Origin: Fodinicurvata sp. EGI_FJ10296
GTDB lineage: Bacteria; Pseudomonadota; Alphaproteobacteria; DSM-16000; Inquilinaceae
NCBI RefSeq assembly: GCF_040712075.1
Contig: NZ_JBFCVL010000005.1
Coordinates: forward strand, 124,001-188,000
DNA length: 64,000 nucleotides
Direction: 5' to 3'
Of the stretch, positions 35,979-42,832 are shown one piece after another (position 1 is the first letter of the stretch; each line of letters opens with the position of its first letter). The notes under the pieces are model-generated. The model was not told the DNA's origin, ran no database searches, and worked only from the letters and a program-made list of their open reading frames with translations. The position numbers and the translations under genes were made by a program.

Positions 35979-37364
35979 ATGACAGCCAAACCGATCCATA
36001 TCATCGGCGGCGGACTGGCCGGCAGTGAGGCTGCCTGGCAGATCGCCGGCGCCGGTGTTCCCGTCATCCTCCACGAGATGCGGCCGGAACGGATGACCGA
36101 GGCCCATCAGACGGAGGGGCTGGCCGAGCTCGTCTGCTCGAATTCGTTCCGGTCCGACGACGCGGAGCAGAATGCCGTTGGTCTGCTGCACGAGGAAATG
36201 CGCCGGGCCGGCAGTCTGATCATGCGCGCCGGCGATGCCAATCAGGTTCCGGCCGGTGGCGCTCTGGCCGTCGACAGGCACGGATTTTCCGCCGCCGTGA
36301 CCGAGGCGATCCAGTCGCATCCGCTTATCACGGTCGATCGGGGCGAGGTCGCAGGCTTGCCCCCGGAGAGCTGGCAGTCGGTCATCATTGCAACCGGCCC
36401 TCTTACCTCGACGTCACTCGCCGAGGCTATATTCGAACTGACCGGCGAGGATTCGCTGGCATTCTTCGATGCGATCGCGCCGATCGTCTACAAGGAGTCG
36501 ATCGATTTCTCCAAGGCATGGTTCCAATCGCGCTACGATAAGGTGGGGCCGGGCGGGTCCGGCAAGGATTACATCAATTGCCCGCTCGACCGGGAGACAT
36601 ACGAGCGGTTCATCAGTGAACTGCTGGCTGCGCCCAAAACGGAATTCAAGGATTGGGAAGTCGACACCCCCTATTTCGAAGGCTGTCTGCCGATCGAAGT
36701 CATGGCCGAACGGGGACCGGAAACCCTGCGATACGGGCCGCTAAAGCCGGTCGGGTTGACGAATCCGAATTCCGAAGAGAAACCCTATGCCGTCGTCCAG
36801 CTTCGCCAAGACAATGCCTTGGGCACGCTTTACAACATGGTCGGCTTTCAGACGAAACTGAAATACGGCGAGCAAAGCCGCGTCCTGAAGATGATACCGG
36901 GCCTGGAGAACGCGGAATTCGCGCGGCTCGGCGGTATTCATCGGAACACCTTTCTCAACAGCCCGCGACTGCTCGACCCGACCCTGCGTCTGAAGGCGGC
37001 GCCTCGTCTGCGGTTCGCCGGGCAGATCACCGGCGTCGAGGGATATGTCGAGTCAGCAGCCATCGGCCTGCTTGCCGGTCGGTTGGCGGCCAGCGAATGC
37101 CTGGGCACCACTTCGGCACCTCCGCCCCGGACGACCGCAATGGGCGCCCTCCTGCGGCATATTACGCTTGATGCCGACCAACGCGGGTTCCAGCCGATGA
37201 ACGTCAATTTCGGACTGTTTCCCGAGGTCGAACCACCGCCGGGGGTGCGAAAGCTGCGCGGCGGCGATCGCAAACGCGCCTACACCAGCAGGGCACTGGC
37301 CGACTTCGACGCATGGCTGCAAGGGGCTCCGGCCGGTGAACTTGCGCCCACCGCCGGTCAGTAA
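35979..37364 (+). CDS. trmFO: tRNA (uracil-5-)-methyltransferase, folate/FAD-dependent
   Basis: Encodes 461 aa from ATG 35979 (GGAAGG upstream). It makes ribothymidine at tRNA position 54 using methylene-tetrahydrofolate and FADH2. The FAD-binding motif is [16 protein letters not shown] (about 8-23), then [15 protein letters not shown] and [26 protein letters not shown] holds the second conserved cysteine. The C-terminus has [21 protein letters not shown]. It lies 67 nt after the glycosylase gene on the same strand and converges on the next gene with an 8-nt gap. Confidence 0.96.
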
Positions 37365-37372
37365 CGGTCCCT

Positions 37373-38290
37373 TCAGTAGCGATTCAGCCAGCTCCGGACC
37401 GCCATGGGAACGATGCGTAACGGCGGCGGATGCGCGAGCCGCGGATCGAATGGATTCCAGCGTGCCTGTTGAAGCCGTTTCAGATGCGCATCCACCAGAC
37501 AGCATCCGGCCAGCAGCCGGATGCTGTCTTTGCCAATGTCCCGGCGTAATCTCCTCGCGCGGTTCAGATGATCGGCGGCCCTGTCGGCGATTTCATGCAC
37601 CACCTCGGCAAGCCCTGCAGAGGCGCGTCCTTCGATGACGTCGCCGCGATCCACCCCTTTGGCCGCCAGCAAGTCCGCCGGCATGCGGCATTGCCGACGA
37701 CGGGCAAGATGCGGCACGGCCCGGATCGTACCGGCGAGACCCCACGCGGTCCCCATATGCCGCACGGCCTCCATCTCGGCTTCTGGCGGCTGACGGGGAT
37801 GCTCCGGGCTGTGTTTCAGGATCGACAACGCGATCGCAAACGGCGTCGCCGCCGTGCCCTCGGCATAAGCTTCCAGACCGGATAGCGTCGCCGGCTGCGG
37901 GTCCTGGGCCAGATCGTGATCTTCGCGGACGGTGAGAATCTGCTCGAACGGTTCGCGATGCAGGCCGAATCGCCGGATTGTCTCGCCAAGCGGTGTGGCG
38001 ACCTCGTGCATCCTGACGGGAGCGTCTTGCTCAACGGCTTCAGCGATCGCGTCCCACCACCATTGGAACCGCATCTGGCCAGCAATGGGTTCGGATACCG
38101 CGTCGGCGATCTTGGCGACTTCGTGGTTGAACGCGTAGACGGTCAGAATCGCCTCGCGCCGATCATGCGGCACGACAAGGGTGGCCATGAACCGATCGCG
38201 ATCATGGGATCTGACGATGCGTCCGCTGGCCGACAGCCGCGCGTCATGCCCAACCGCATTTGCTTCAGCTGCCATCTCATTGTCGATCAT
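37373..38290 (-). CDS. Squalene/phytoene synthase-family protein, NDUFAF6-like
   Basis: About 305 aa if started at ATG 38290; the upstream open frame to 38449 shows no conserved features, and 38275 is another option. It has the fold of trans-isoprenyl synthases: VYAFNHEVAKIADAV, RFQWWWDAIAE, then GTAWGLAGTIRAVPHLARR and LLAGCCLVDAHLKRL. The two Asp-rich catalytic motifs of true squalene/phytoene synthases are degenerate. This matches the bacterial relatives of mitochondrial NDUFAF6, a complex I assembly factor. The nearby Mth938 (NDUFAF3-like) gene and secDF support that view over carotenoid or hopanoid synthesis. Confidence 0.8.
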   Translation of the reverse strand: MIDNEMAAEANAVGHDARLSASGRIVRSHDRDRFMATLVVPHDRREAILTVYAFNHEVAKIADAVSEPIAGQMRFQWWWDAIAEAVEQDAPVRMHEVATPLGETIRRFGLHREPFEQILTVREDHDLAQDPQPATLSGLEAYAEGTAATPFAIALSILKHSPEHPRQPPEAEMEAVRHMGTAWGLAGTIRAVPHLARRRQCRMPADLLAAKGVDRGDVIEGRASAGLAEVVHEIADRAADHLNRARRLRRDIGKDSIRLLAGCCLVDAHLKRLQQARWNPFDPRLAHPPPLRIVPMAVRSWLNRY

Positions 38291-38473
38291 ACGTCGTGTC
38301 ACGGGCAAATATCGCTCATTGTTGGTGATTTCCCACCTGTAGGCGGTGGCCGATTCCGGCCCCAAAGCCGATTGGCTGTGAAAACTGATGGCAGTCCCTT
38401 CACATTCAGTGAGGCAATCGTTATCTCTCCACGAGAGCGCATGGCTCAACCACTAAAAGTCGAGGGATAATCA

Positions 38474-39076
38474 ATGGCTTTCCAACTGCCCGATCTGCCC
38501 TACTCCTACGATGCCCTGGCTCCGTACATGTCACGGGAAACGCTCGAATTTCACCATGACAAGCACCACGCCAAGTACATCTCCACGATGAACGACATGA
38601 TCAAGGGCACGCCCCTTGAGAATGCCGATCTCGACACCGTCATGAAGGAGAGCTTCAACGATCCGTCCAAACGGGGATTGTTCAATCAGGCTGGCCAAAC
38701 CTGGAACCACAACCATTTCTGGCAGATGATGAAACCCAGCGGCGGAGGTTCGATCCCCGGCGAACTGGAGAAGAAAATTGCCGCCGACTTCGGCAGCGTC
38801 GATGCGTTCAAGGACGAGTTCAAGAAGGCCGGCGCCACGTTGTTCGGAAGCGGCTGGGCCTGGCTTGCGCTCGATGGCGGCAAGCTTACCGTCATGCAGA
38901 CGCCGAACGGCGAGAACCCGAACGCACACGGGAAGACGGCGCTTCTCGGCGTCGATGTGTGGGAACATGCGTTCTACATTGACTACCGGAACGACAAGCC
39001 GAAATATCTTGAGGCGTTCCTCAACAACCTGGTCAACTGGGACTATGTTGCCGAGTTGTACTCGAAGGCCTCGTAG
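38474..39076 (+). CDS. sodB: Superoxide dismutase [Fe]
   Basis: Encodes 200 aa, cytoplasmic (no signal peptide). It dismutates superoxide. Metal ligands are H27 (LEFHHDKHH), H79 (QTWNHNHFW), D161 and H165 (DVWEHAFYID). Q75, four residues before H79, sits where the Fe-type enzymes place their second-sphere glutamine, so the iron (or cambialistic) type is likely. It is divergent from the NDUFAF6-like gene and followed by a strong terminator. Confidence 0.96.
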   Translation: MAFQLPDLPYSYDALAPYMSRETLEFHHDKHHAKYISTMNDMIKGTPLENADLDTVMKESFNDPSKRGLFNQAGQTWNHNHFWQMMKPSGGGSIPGELEKKIAADFGSVDAFKDEFKKAGATLFGSGWAWLALDGGKLTVMQTPNGENPNAHGKTALLGVDVWEHAFYIDYRNDKPKYLEAFLNNLVNWDYVAELYSKAS

Positions 39077-39120
39077 CGACAACCGTGCGGCCCTGAAAGC
39101 CGTAATGTCTGCCTCAGCCG

Positions 39121-39158
39121 GGGCCGTCTCGATCCAATCGGGACGGCCCTTTGTATTT
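39121..39158 (+). terminator. Rho-independent terminator after sodB
   Basis: A 13-bp stem, GGGCCGTCTCGAT (39121-39133) with ATCGGGACGGCCC (39137-39149), one T-G pair, a 3-nt loop, then TTTGTATTT. It lies 45 nt after the sodB stop. Confidence 0.85.
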
Positions 39159-39221
39159 GTCGACAGCAACGCAAAATGCGTCGCGGACAATTTCAGCGAC
39201 TCTACCGGTCACCATCGAACG

Positions 39222-39599
39222 TCAGATAGCAATCAGGGCAGCGCCAACACTGCGACCTTCGGCGAGAAGCACGTTGTAGGTTCGACAGGCAGCGCCGGTC
39301 TCCATCACATCGACCGATATGCCTCTGTCGATAACCGCGTCCCTCACAGTCCGGGGAACCAACGTCATCTTGCCGCCGCTGCCGAGCAGTAATATCTCCA
39401 AATGCTCCGGCGACTGGGACACGGCATCCACAATGTTCTGCGCGGTCAGATCCTCGACAGCGCCCACGGACCACGAGGCCACGCCGGTGGGGAACACGAG
39501 CATCGAACCGTGATAGACCTCGCCGGAAATCCGGAACTGATTGGGACCGTAGCCATTGATAACCCAGCGATTGCCGGGGATCATCGGTGTGACATCCAT
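39222..39599 (-). CDS. Mth938-domain protein, NDUFAF3-like
   Basis: Encodes 125 aa. GGAGGCGGCTG precedes ATG 39599. It has the Mth938/DUF498 pattern: INGYGPNQFRISGEVYHGSMLVFP, then LEILLLGSGGKMTLVP and a C-terminal ACRTYNVLLAEGRSVGAALI. The human homologue NDUFAF3 takes part in complex I assembly. In Alphaproteobacteria the gene commonly follows secF, as here (83-nt gap). Biochemical function is unknown. It and the NDUFAF6-like gene flank sodB, which runs in the opposite direction. Confidence 0.88.
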   Translation of the reverse strand: MDVTPMIPGNRWVINGYGPNQFRISGEVYHGSMLVFPTGVASWSVGAVEDLTAQNIVDAVSQSPEHLEILLLGSGGKMTLVPRTVRDAVIDRGISVDVMETGAACRTYNVLLAEGRSVGAALIAI

Positions 39600-39682: not shown

Positions 39683-40636
39683 CTAGGACGCTGTGCCGGT
39701 CACCCGGGCCGCCGTATCCTTATCCGATTCTTCCCCGGATCTCGAAGTACGCGTGAGACCCATATACAGAAGAAGCGGAACAGCCAGCAGAATGGAACTG
39801 TAGGTACCGATCAGAATGCCCCAGATCAGCGCAAAAGCAAAATTCTGGATCACGGCACCACCAAAAACATAGATGGCTGCAAGTGCCAACAACGTCGTCA
39901 CACTGGTCAAGATCGTCCGTGACAGAACGTCGTTAATTGATCGGTTAAGAACCTCGACCAGGGACGCCTTCTTGTACCGGCGGAGATTCTCGCGGACGCG
40001 GTCGAAAACGACGACCGTGTCATTGATCGAGTATCCGGCGATCGTCAGCAATGCCGCAATCGTCGAAAGGTTGAACTCGAACTGAATCAACGCGAAGAGC
40101 CCGATTGTCGTAATGACATCATGGGCCAATGCAATGACGGCACACAGCCCGAACTGCCATTCGAACCGAAGCCAGATATAGATCAATATGCCGGCCAACG
40201 ACAGCAATACAGCCATGGTGCCGGCTTCGACCAGTTCGTCGCCCACCGTCGGCCCGACAAACTCGGTACGCCGGTATTCGACGTTGTCGCCCAGTGCATC
40301 CTGAACAACGCCAATGGCCTCGATCTGCTCTTCCTCGGTGCCGGATTGCCGCTGTATCCGGATCAAAACGTCCCGATCCGTTCCGAAAAGCTGAAGCGAC
40401 GTCTCTCCCAGGCCGAGACCTTCAAGAGAGTTACGCATCTGTTCCAGGTCCGCCGGTTCCTCTGTGCGGACTTCCAGCAACGTGCCACCGCGGAAATCGA
40501 TTCCGAAATTCAATCCCTGTATGGCAGTCGTTACAATCGCCAGCAGAACCAGAACGGCAGAGAACGCAAATGCGATACGCCTCAATCCGATGAAGTTGAC
40601 CGACAGACTGTCCGGTACGATGCGAAGTGGTTTCAT
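39683..40636 (-). CDS. secF: Protein-export membrane protein SecF
   Basis: Encodes 317 aa from ATG 40636 (GAGGAAAG upstream; longer frame rejected). It works with SecD to drive late translocation through SecYEG using the proton gradient. Six transmembrane segments are visible, with the hallmark GLNFGIDFRGGTLLEV (first periplasmic loop), ALAHDVITTIGLFAL and GYSINDTVVVFDRVRENLR. RTILTSVTTLLALAAIYVFGG is also conserved. It follows secD by 14 nt. Confidence 0.96.
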   Translation of the reverse strand: MKPLRIVPDSLSVNFIGLRRIAFAFSAVLVLLAIVTTAIQGLNFGIDFRGGTLLEVRTEEPADLEQMRNSLEGLGLGETSLQLFGTDRDVLIRIQRQSGTEEEQIEAIGVVQDALGDNVEYRRTEFVGPTVGDELVEAGTMAVLLSLAGILIYIWLRFEWQFGLCAVIALAHDVITTIGLFALIQFEFNLSTIAALLTIAGYSINDTVVVFDRVRENLRRYKKASLVEVLNRSINDVLSRTILTSVTTLLALAAIYVFGGAVIQNFAFALIWGILIGTYSSILLAVPLLLYMGLTRTSRSGEESDKDTAARVTGTAS

Positions 40637-40650
40637 GACCGGGACTTTCC

Positions 40651-42237
40651 TCAGATCGGAATCGATTTCGGACGCTGGCGACGAAGCCATGTCACGACGA
40701 ACAGGCGGGTAACCATAATGGCAGTGAACATCGAACACAGGATGCCAAAGGACAATGTAACCGCAAATCCGCGGATCGGCCCCGTCCCCAGCGCGAATAG
40801 CAGCGCCGCGGCGATCAGGGTCGTGACATTGGAGTCGATGATGGTCGTCAAGGCGCGGCTGTAACCGGCGTCGACGGCTGAGATCGGCGTTCTTCCTGCC
40901 GCCTGTTCTTCGCGTATGCGCTCGAAGATCAGGACATTGGCATCGACTGCCATGCCGACGGTGAGGACGATTCCGGCGATCCCCGGCAGCGTCAACGTCG
41001 CCTGCAGGGCCGACAATACCGCGATGAGAAGCGCCAGATTGATAATCAGCGCAGCCGAAGCCATCAGACCCAACAGACCATAAGTCACGGACATGAAGAC
41101 GATGACCAGGAGAAATCCGATTGCCGAAGCGATCTGACCGGCCGCGATGCTGTCTTCTCCCAGGCCGGGCCCAACCGTCCGTTCCTCAAGCACCGTGAGC
41201 GGTGCCGGAAGTGCGCCGGCCCGCAAAAGAATCGCCAGGTCGTTCGCGCTATCGACGCTGAACTGTCCGGTGATAATTCCACGGCCACCAAGAATGGGCG
41301 AATTGATCCGCGGCGCGGAAACGACCTTGTCGTCGAGTACGATCGCGAGGAAGCGGCCGACATTCTCCTGCGTCACCTCGCCAAAACGTCGCGCTCCGAC
41401 ACTGTCGAAACTGAAAGAGACGACCGGTTGTCCGTCCTGAAACGTCGGCTGCGCGTCGACCAGAGTCTCACCGCTCACCATCACCCGGCGGCGAACGACA
41501 TAGTCCTGAACCGGCTCGCCGTCAGGCCCCGTCTCGTCACTGGGAACAAGCATCGATCCGGCGGGAAGATTGCCTTCCCTAGCCTGCTGCACTGACGTGC
41601 CCTCATCAAGCATATGAAAAGTCAGTCGAGCCGTTTGGCCCAGCAGATCCTTGATCCGTTCCGGATCTTCGATACCCGGCAACTGGACGATGATGCGATC
41701 TTCGCCCTGCCGCTGGATGTTGGGTTCCACGGTTCCGAATTCATTTACCCGCCGCCGAACGATCTCGATCGCCTGATCGACGGCGCCAGCCCGCAATTCC
41801 TGCAGTCCCAGGTCACTGAATCCCGCCGTGACCGAGGTGCCGTCGGCGCTGACCTCAAGGCTCTGATCGTATTCCGTGACCATGCTGCGGACAGCGCTCA
41901 CGTCGTCGGCATCGCGAAGCTCCAAGGTCAGGCTGTCGCCGTCGAGTCCCAGACCGGTATATCCGATATCGTCGGCGCGGAGCTGCGTGCGAAGCTGTTC
42001 GACCGCGGCTTCGAGCCGTTCGCCGATCAGCACCTGGTATTCAACCTCCAGAAGCAGATGCGAGCCGCCCTGAAGGTCGAGGCCGAGCACGATCTGACGG
42101 CCGGGAACCCAGGCTGGCAGCGATTCGGACCATTCCTGCACGGTGTTCCGGTCGAATGCGTTCGGCGCGGCATAGAGCCCGCCCAACAGGCACACCAGAA
42201 GCACAAGGATGATCTTCCATCGCGGATAGTGAATCAT
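40651..42237 (-). CDS. secD: Protein translocase subunit SecD
   Basis: Encodes 528 aa. It opens with MIHYPRWKIILVLLVCLLG and carries VLGLDLQGGSHLLLEV, the SecD signature. The large periplasmic P1 region (about 60-330) includes VNEFGTVEPNIQRQGEDRIIVQLPG. The membrane domain holds GIVLTVGMAVDANVLIFERIREE and SNVTTLIAAALLFALGTGPIRGFAVTL. It is the middle gene of yajC-secD-secF. Confidence 0.96.
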   Translation of the reverse strand: MIHYPRWKIILVLLVCLLGGLYAAPNAFDRNTVQEWSESLPAWVPGRQIVLGLDLQGGSHLLLEVEYQVLIGERLEAAVEQLRTQLRADDIGYTGLGLDGDSLTLELRDADDVSAVRSMVTEYDQSLEVSADGTSVTAGFSDLGLQELRAGAVDQAIEIVRRRVNEFGTVEPNIQRQGEDRIIVQLPGIEDPERIKDLLGQTARLTFHMLDEGTSVQQAREGNLPAGSMLVPSDETGPDGEPVQDYVVRRRVMVSGETLVDAQPTFQDGQPVVSFSFDSVGARRFGEVTQENVGRFLAIVLDDKVVSAPRINSPILGGRGIITGQFSVDSANDLAILLRAGALPAPLTVLEERTVGPGLGEDSIAAGQIASAIGFLLVIVFMSVTYGLLGLMASAALIINLALLIAVLSALQATLTLPGIAGIVLTVGMAVDANVLIFERIREEQAAGRTPISAVDAGYSRALTTIIDSNVTTLIAAALLFALGTGPIRGFAVTLSFGILCSMFTAIMVTRLFVVTWLRRQRPKSIPI

Positions 42238-42397: not shown

Positions 42398-42832
42398 CTA
42401 TCGCCCGAGGAAACGGCCGAATCCCTTTTTCGCGTCCGCAGCTGGGGGTTCGGCCGCTGTGTCGCCATCCGCGGCATCGCTCTCGCCGTCCTGATCATCC
42501 CCGCCCTTGCCCCTGGCGGGCTTCGTTTTTGCCAGCACGTCCGCGACCATGTGCTGCATCGCCTTGACCCTGACGCCGTCGGCGATTTCCAGCGTCAGCA
42601 TGTTGTCCGAACCGACCTTGACGACCTGGCCGACGATGCCGCCATTGGTCACGATGCGATCGCCGCGCCGTATGCCGTCCAGCATCTCGCGATGCTGCTT
42701 CTGCCGTTTCTGCTGAGGGCGGATCAGCAGGAAGTAGAAGACGACGAAAATGAGAATCAGGGGCAACAGATTGATCAGAAGGTTGCCGCCACCGGCCCCG
42801 CCCGATTGAGCGTACGCCTGCGAAATGAACAT
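42398..42832 (-). CDS. yajC: Preprotein translocase subunit YajC
   Basis: Encodes 144 aa. One transmembrane helix in NLLPLILIFVVFYFLLIRPQQKRQKQH is followed by the YajC domain, GDRIVTNGGIVGQVVKV. The last 45 residues are an acidic Asp/Ala-rich tail ending in KKGFGRFLGR; common YajC proteins are about 110 aa. It associates with SecDF and is the first gene of that operon, with a good promoter upstream. The gap to secD is 160 nt, longer than usual. Confidence 0.95.
   Translation of the reverse strand: MFISQAYAQSGGAGGGNLLINLLPLILIFVVFYFLLIRPQQKRQKQHREMLDGIRRGDRIVTNGGIVGQVVKVGSDNMLTLEIADGVRVKAMQHMVADVLAKTKPARGKGGDDQDGESDAADGDTAAEPPAADAKKGFGRFLGR

Follow-up and report, generated by a model that had tools for sequence, protein, structure and literature searches.

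NDUFAF3 (C3orf60) and NDUFAF6 (C8orf38), the latter a human complex I assembly factor, are described in the accessible part of PMC10910544 as assembly factors for the quinone and proximal pump modules. According to the available portion of PMC8007014, both of the Asp motifs of squalene synthases are absent from NDUFAF6 and its orthologues. In the window (the whole stretch of 64,000 nucleotides that was analysed), genes resembling both factors lie close together beside secF-secD-yajC, with a superoxide dismutase (SOD) gene, sodB, between them. An earlier, sequence-only reading called the link of these families with secDF known, and Saada et al. 2009 is reportedly its likely source; our literature search, which covered few subscription journals, found no paper joining any two of C8orf38, secDF, and Mth938, and, among the papers listed, none joining C3orf60 with secD. 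What is new here is that a short DUF989 protein occupies the place of sodB in many relatives and complements SOD genome-wide. The arrangement described for this window holds up and exceeds what chance would give.

The locus and the NDUFAF6-like protein

The host genome (G000) comprises 4.83 Mb and is 99.4% complete. From left to right, the window carries trmFO (+), the NDUFAF6-like gene (-), sodB (+), the NDUFAF3-like DUF498 gene (-), secF, secD, and yajC (all -), and DUF815 (+). Hereafter, AF6 and AF3 denote the NDUFAF6-like gene and the NDUFAF3-like DUF498 gene, respectively, and the slot denotes the place between AF3 and AF6. The features were as follows.

35979..37364, + strand: trmFO, convergent with AF6 and taken as the control gene; TIGR00137 over cut-off
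37373..38290, - strand: AF6; SQS_PSY (Pfam) 167.7 bits, cut-off 26
38399..38427, + strand: promoter-like TTCACA-N17-TATCTC upstream of sodB, in a stretch shared with the divergent AF6
38474..39076, + strand: sodB, Fe/Mn-type superoxide dismutase, the slot occupant here; Sod_Fe_N and Sod_Fe_C both over cut-off
39120..39150, + strand: terminator-like hairpin 3' of sodB, with a 14-pair stem and a T-rich tail
39222..39599, - strand: AF3, a single, small gene; PF04430 106.4 bits, cut-off 33
39683..40738, - strand: secF open frame, the true start probably being further in; TIGR00966 over cut-off
40651..42237, - strand: secD; TIGR01129 over cut-off
42398..42832, - strand: yajC; TIGR00739 over cut-off

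These domain searches agreed with the genes and the coordinates given for AF6, sodB, and AF3 beside secF-secD-yajC in an earlier, sequence-only reading of this DNA, and sodB indeed lies between the two factor genes on the opposite strand. The open frame of AF6 extends to a TTG at 38449, and the ATG at 38290 is the likely start, judging from the conserved part and the ATG itself. The separate terminator attributed to sodB is present in form: besides the hairpin with its T-rich tail, the stretch 39077-39165, which spans the region 3' of sodB, folds at z = -4.1, and a terminator scan of 2.5 kb returned 5 terminator-like sites vs 2.0 expected. AF3 resembles NDUFAF3/DUF498 (Mth938-like) in exceeding the PF04430 cut-off and in being a single small gene, and the GAACRTxN stretch of its product was conserved across 14 relatives.

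Both the structural model of the NDUFAF6-like protein (mean pLDDT 93.9) and the motif counts were based on an alignment of 48 sequences. With a threshold of E 0.001, the model matched 18 solved structures (CrtM-like, HpnC, dehydrosqualene synthase, carbazole prenyltransferase, and YisP). In motif 1, the column of the first Asp was occupied by A, S or G in all 48 sequences; an acidic residue was found four columns on, likewise in 48 of 48, and the placement of a one-residue gap decides to which Asp it corresponds. In motif 2 (columns 190-195), Asp was absent throughout the alignment, and the Arg preceding the motif was invariably kept. The DxxxD pair of squalene/phytoene synthases was accordingly not found in this alignment. 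The score of the protein was 96.7 bits against HpnD (cut-off 278.6), 47.1 bits against HpnC (cut-off 250.45), and 37.7 against cyanobacterial CrtB (cut-off 550). Two further SQS_PSY genes, adjacent to each other, were found on contig 9 of the host genome; these stretches, as cut, scored 273.4 for HpnD and 207.5 for HpnC, which is near, not over, the cut-offs.

Squalene or phytoene synthase activity of the NDUFAF6-like protein would agree with its sharing the fold of these enzymes and with the acidic residue kept near motif 1, but the loss of Asp from motif 2, the scores far below the enzyme cut-offs, and the presence of separate HpnD-like and HpnC-like genes elsewhere in the genome leave this explanation a very slim chance. 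The motifs together with those scores also rule out an active prenyl transferase. At the motif level, the protein is a squalene-synthase fold that appears to have lost catalysis; the sequence-only reading had proposed modelling the active site for missing Asp-rich motifs, and the second of them proved to be gone. We used the name NDUFAF6-like because the motif loss is as that described in the accessible part of PMC8007014 and because of the gene context. The two proteins are alike in a squalene-synthase fold without the Asp motifs and in having an NDUFAF3-like gene as companion, whereas the gene here is bacterial and lies beside secDF and sodB; the likeness considered is one of motifs and context. 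A search of the PDB found no NDUFAF6 chain.

Conservation of the neighbourhood

The relatives consisted of 20 fetched loci and 80 named loci. Because the named loci had been picked by likeness to AF6, an even sample of the class was used as well (115 genomes, each at least 95% complete), with profiles for AF6, AF3, NuoC, SOD, trmFO, and DUF989. With a cut of our own at 137 bits or more, a clear AF6 was present in 58 of the 115 genomes, among the matches listed. The order DUF815 / yajC-secD-secF-AF3-(slot)-AF6 / trmFO recurred in the fetched and the named loci, and such conservation of gene order characterises the region. AF3 was present in 47 of the 58 AF6 genomes and lay within 9 kb of AF6 on the same strand in 39 of the 47, and in the majority of the loci read the pair of factor genes adjoined yajC and secDF. 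The gap between AF3 and AF6 was shorter than 150 bp in 10 of 53 loci with both genes; the two nearly touch in Microvirga, Stappia, Roseibium, and two other loci. Some frames of about 230-290 aa near AF3 (e.g. in G058, G074, and G114) align with no more than roughly the first 160 positions of the AF6 profile, among the matches listed, and are perhaps a short or diverged form of AF6.

SOD was present in 43 of the 58 AF6 genomes, and 24 of these 43 had it no more than 5 kb from AF6, in line with the conservation of sodB across relatives that the sequence-only reading had proposed to check. All 24 nearby SODs were upstream of AF6, 21 of them divergent and three on the same strand. Random placement in genomes of 4 Mb would yield 0.135 such cases, a figure that ignores shared ancestry.

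Several single loci extend this picture. Below the 137-bit cut, G043 and G108 also carry a divergent SOD, and in G057 sodB lies beside the NDUFAF3-like gene on another contig. In G089:C248:3482-4901 and G131:C87:12206-13578, sodB is found just upstream of AF6 on the same strand, the matches being about 45-60 bp apart, which is operon-like. Locus L057 (JANQQD010000035.1) is titled Anaerolineae; its gene order is that of the G012 contig, G012 belonging to the same family as the window, and the locus is probably a mislabelled bin.

In 43 of 57 genomes, the control gene trmFO lay no further than 5 kb from AF6. We know of no role in complex I for this tRNA-modification gene. Since trmFO is as faithful a neighbour as sodB, linkage alone proves little about shared function. 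By neutral shared ancestry, an old and slowly rearranging gene order of the class would simply have been retained, and sodB would have no bearing on complex I. The places kept by trmFO and DUF815, neither with a known tie to complex I, and the many other genes that pass through the slot are in keeping with this explanation, but the SodBs in the slot belong to at least two lineages, and an alternative occupant complementing SOD across whole genomes is not what neutral order would predict. On balance, we consider neutral ancestry somewhat unlikely.

As for complex I itself, all 58 sampled AF6 genomes carried a complex I subunit gene (NuoC in 57 and a NuoD fragment in one). The 12 genomes without NuoC in the class sample were all reduced (0.7-1.8 Mb), and hence the co-occurrence of AF6 with NuoC is weak because of confounding with genome size. 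Co-occurrence of the factors with NuoC was therefore dropped as proof of a complex I role. Genome G080 had been a candidate for a complex-I-less genome with an NDUFAF6-like gene and was rejected, since the NuoD fragment at the start of a contig indicates that NuoC was probably lost at the break. The earlier assignment of both proteins as complex I assembly homologues is partly supported by the motif loss and by the conserved cluster beside secDF.

Superoxide dismutases in the slot

sodB was the sole Fe/Mn-SOD match in the host genome. A Mn-preferring SOD group in Alphaproteobacteria is described in the accessible part of PMC10172142, and the name sodB therefore does not settle the metal. Of the 80 named loci, three repeated fetched loci and were left out; among the remaining 77, the slot could not be read in 8. 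In the 69 readable slots, sodB was found in 25 (divergent from AF6 in 24), short DUF989 in 23, both in 3, and neither in 24.

A SOD tree was built from 52 sequences, including 34 SodBs located in the slot or next to it. Monophyly of these 34 slot SodBs was rejected (AU p = 0.00045), with a long-branch warning on the tree. The SodB of the window belonged to a clade of 24 rows with 99/100 support, consisting of 17 slot SodBs and 7 from elsewhere, and the slot SodBs outside this clade were those of Azospirillum, Telmatospirillum, Magnetospirillum, Reyranella, and Rhodovibrionaceae. As the slot SodBs do not form one clade, different SodBs have been held there over time, by replacement, duplication or repeated entry. 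Furthermore, when the sodB label was placed on a secD-secF-trmFO tree of 82 loci, at least 11 changes were needed, 7 of them forced by well-supported branches. The sequence-only reading had held an insertion by chance to be equally possible. The position of sodB is common to many families of the class, and this shared position, together with its occupation by SodBs of more than one lineage, does not support that claim; conservation of the position rules out a private chance insertion. In L085:6271-7637, the slot contains two adjacent SodBs of different lineages, one on each strand.

The region between sodB and AF6 was also compared. A pattern like TTCACA-N17-TATCTC, chosen by eye after looking, was found in 7 of 22 divergent loci vs a mean of 0.18 in local shuffles; a stricter promoter scan did not report the pattern at 38399..38427. 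If the link between sodB and AF6 were one of shared regulation only, through a divergent promoter region responding, e.g., to iron or oxygen, the divergence of 21 of the 24 nearby SODs and the recurrence of the promoter-like pattern would be explained. However, the spacer is 47-74 bp in L065, L075, L094, and L113, too short for two separate promoters, and several kb in other loci, and no operator common to sodB and AF6 was seen by eye in the spacers of relatives. Regulation as the only link is accordingly improbable. A shared operator was rejected as a candidate, the recurrent feature being the promoter-like pattern only.

The short DUF989 protein and its complementarity with SOD

In many relatives, the slot holds a short DUF989/PuuD-like membrane protein (e.g. 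L058:7307-7891, L100:7242-7880, and L046:3171-3782); a genome search found none in the host genome. The protein has about 200 aa and matches part of the Urate_ox_N domain, and the two proteins tried gave no match to NCBIfam models. The aligned consensus contains no Cys, and hence no cytochrome c motif, and one His is invariant in 20 sequences. A predicted model (pLDDT 85) showed five long helices and had no fold match in the PDB at E 0.001 or better. The sole weak sequence match, to a mitochondrial ribosomal protein at E 0.02, was rejected.

Two described membrane proteins are the closest comparisons. The short slot protein matches part of the membrane domain of PuuD, the cytochrome-c urate oxidase of the DUF989 family, but its small size and the lack of a full DUF989 domain and of cytochrome c set it apart from PuuD. 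Short DUF989 forms with four membrane helices, no cytochrome c, and a gene context unlike that of puuD are described in the available part of PMC4562309. CybB of E. coli, a superoxide oxidase, is likewise a small membrane helical bundle and removes superoxide without SOD. Its two b haems are bound by several His, as stated in the accessible part of PMC11869295, whereas the short DUF989 protein has the one invariant His and no b561-like fold match, and we do not place it in the CybB family.

Within 5 kb of AF6, the 58 AF6 genomes had SOD only in 17 cases, DUF989 only in 24, both in 7, and neither in 10 (Fisher p = 0.003), and 48 of the 58 carried SOD or short DUF989 within 5 kb upstream. Here and below, SOD counts are those of Fe/Mn-SOD; Cu/Zn-SOD, Ni-SOD, and superoxide reductase lie outside them. 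Across the 115 genomes, 25 had both genes, 60 had SOD without DUF989, 27 had DUF989 without SOD, and 3 had neither (p = 5e-9), so that DUF989 was present in 27 of the 30 SOD-less genomes of the class sample. The three genomes with neither have 0.7-1.2 Mb and no NuoC match; one of them, G101, matches the 49-kDa complex I subunit family. All 103 genomes with NuoC had SOD, DUF989 or both (101 of 103 with weak SOD matches discounted). Discounting the five weak SOD matches gave DUF989 in 30 of 35 SOD-less genomes and left G067 and G087, both with NuoC, with neither. DUF989 occupied the slot in 14 of the 15 genomes with AF6 and no SOD, as it did in two less complete genomes outside the sample (G023 and G031) that gave no SOD match. 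Among 41 relatives, 13 were SOD-less; DUF989 was known in 6 of the 13, and the other 7, including G009 with an empty slot, lay outside the DUF989 search. Statistically, SOD and DUF989 thus behave as alternatives, both within the slot and at the level of the whole genome.

The complement was also examined on a NuoB-F tree of 102 genomes, one of the 103 with NuoC having been dropped for too little sequence; this was a quick tree with many weak branches. SOD changed at least 20 times on it. Among 11 independent pairs on well-supported branches, none had DUF989 and SOD changing in the same direction, and about 5 had them changing in opposite directions (median p 0.06; 0.125 when the traits were swapped). 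When one trait was simulated along the tree independently of the other, with G078 and G093 also left out for their very long branches, 12-13 genomes lacking both were expected and none was seen; none of 858 and none of 1675 accepted runs was as low. With weak SOD discounted, 2 genomes lacked both vs 15-16.5 expected, and 0 of 872 and 0 of 981 runs were as low. Phylogenetic simulation does not explain the complement of SOD and DUF989 away.

The complement could still arise from way of life or another shared cause, with DUF989 unrelated to superoxide. The 25 of 115 genomes with both genes would fit such a cause, as would the single invariant His of DUF989 with no significant solved fold match, and the further enzymes outside the SOD counts (Cu/Zn-SOD, Ni-SOD, and superoxide reductase) could play a part. 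Against it stand the repeated changes of SOD on the NuoB-F tree with no independent pair going the same way, and the position of DUF989 in the very slot of SOD in AF6 genomes that lack SOD. We regard a shared cause as unlikely.

The reading that we prefer is that the region, composed of yajC-secD-secF, AF3, the slot, and AF6, may be an old alphaproteobacterial neighbourhood for building complex I, with the slot given to a superoxide-defence gene. By analogy with the human homologues, the two factors would help assemble the quinone/membrane junction of complex I, and SecDF-YajC would help insert its membrane subunits. The slot would hold a defence gene against superoxide, sodB here and short DUF989 in many relatives: SodB would remove superoxide arising at the membrane or from partly assembled complex I, and the DUF989 protein would do so in SOD-less lineages. 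For the whole of this reading, we judge the chances for and against to be evenly balanced. It draws on the motif loss of AF6, the pairing of AF3 with AF6 in 39 of 47 genomes, the linkage of SOD, the slot SodBs of multiple lineages, and the SOD/DUF989 complement; the linkage of trmFO, the other slot genes, the 25 genomes with both SOD and DUF989, the small number of informative pairs (about 5), and the 49-kDa match of G101 count against it. The sequence-only reading had suspected that the layout of sodB and complex I factors is functional, complex I being a source of superoxide. Its superoxide part gains support from the complement, and its argument from linkage is tempered by the equal conservation of trmFO.

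More tentatively, and with a chance that we place short of even, the short DUF989 protein is a candidate membrane substitute for SOD beside complex I assembly, which would enable life without Fe/Mn-SOD in complex-I-bearing Alphaproteobacteria. A literature search that covered few subscription journals and no supplements found nothing joining sodB or short DUF989 with these genes, and the accessible parts of the literature on DUF989 revealed no tie to SOD. If the preferred reading is true, superoxide removal would be linked to where and when complex I is assembled in a class thought to include mitochondrial kin, an orphan membrane family would gain a function, and the many complex-I-bearing Alphaproteobacteria without Fe/Mn-SOD would be explained.

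Other genes were also observed in the slot and around AF6. The slot of other relatives holds FAD monooxygenase and cupin genes. A radical SAM gene occupies it in L034:9481-11244 and L057:6205-7956, both of one genus (G005 and G012), in which sodB is on another contig. At least 7 of the 58 genomes (G048, G050, G054, G062, G105, G121, and G128) carry a second SQS_PSY gene close to AF6, indicating that enzyme paralogues also enter the region.
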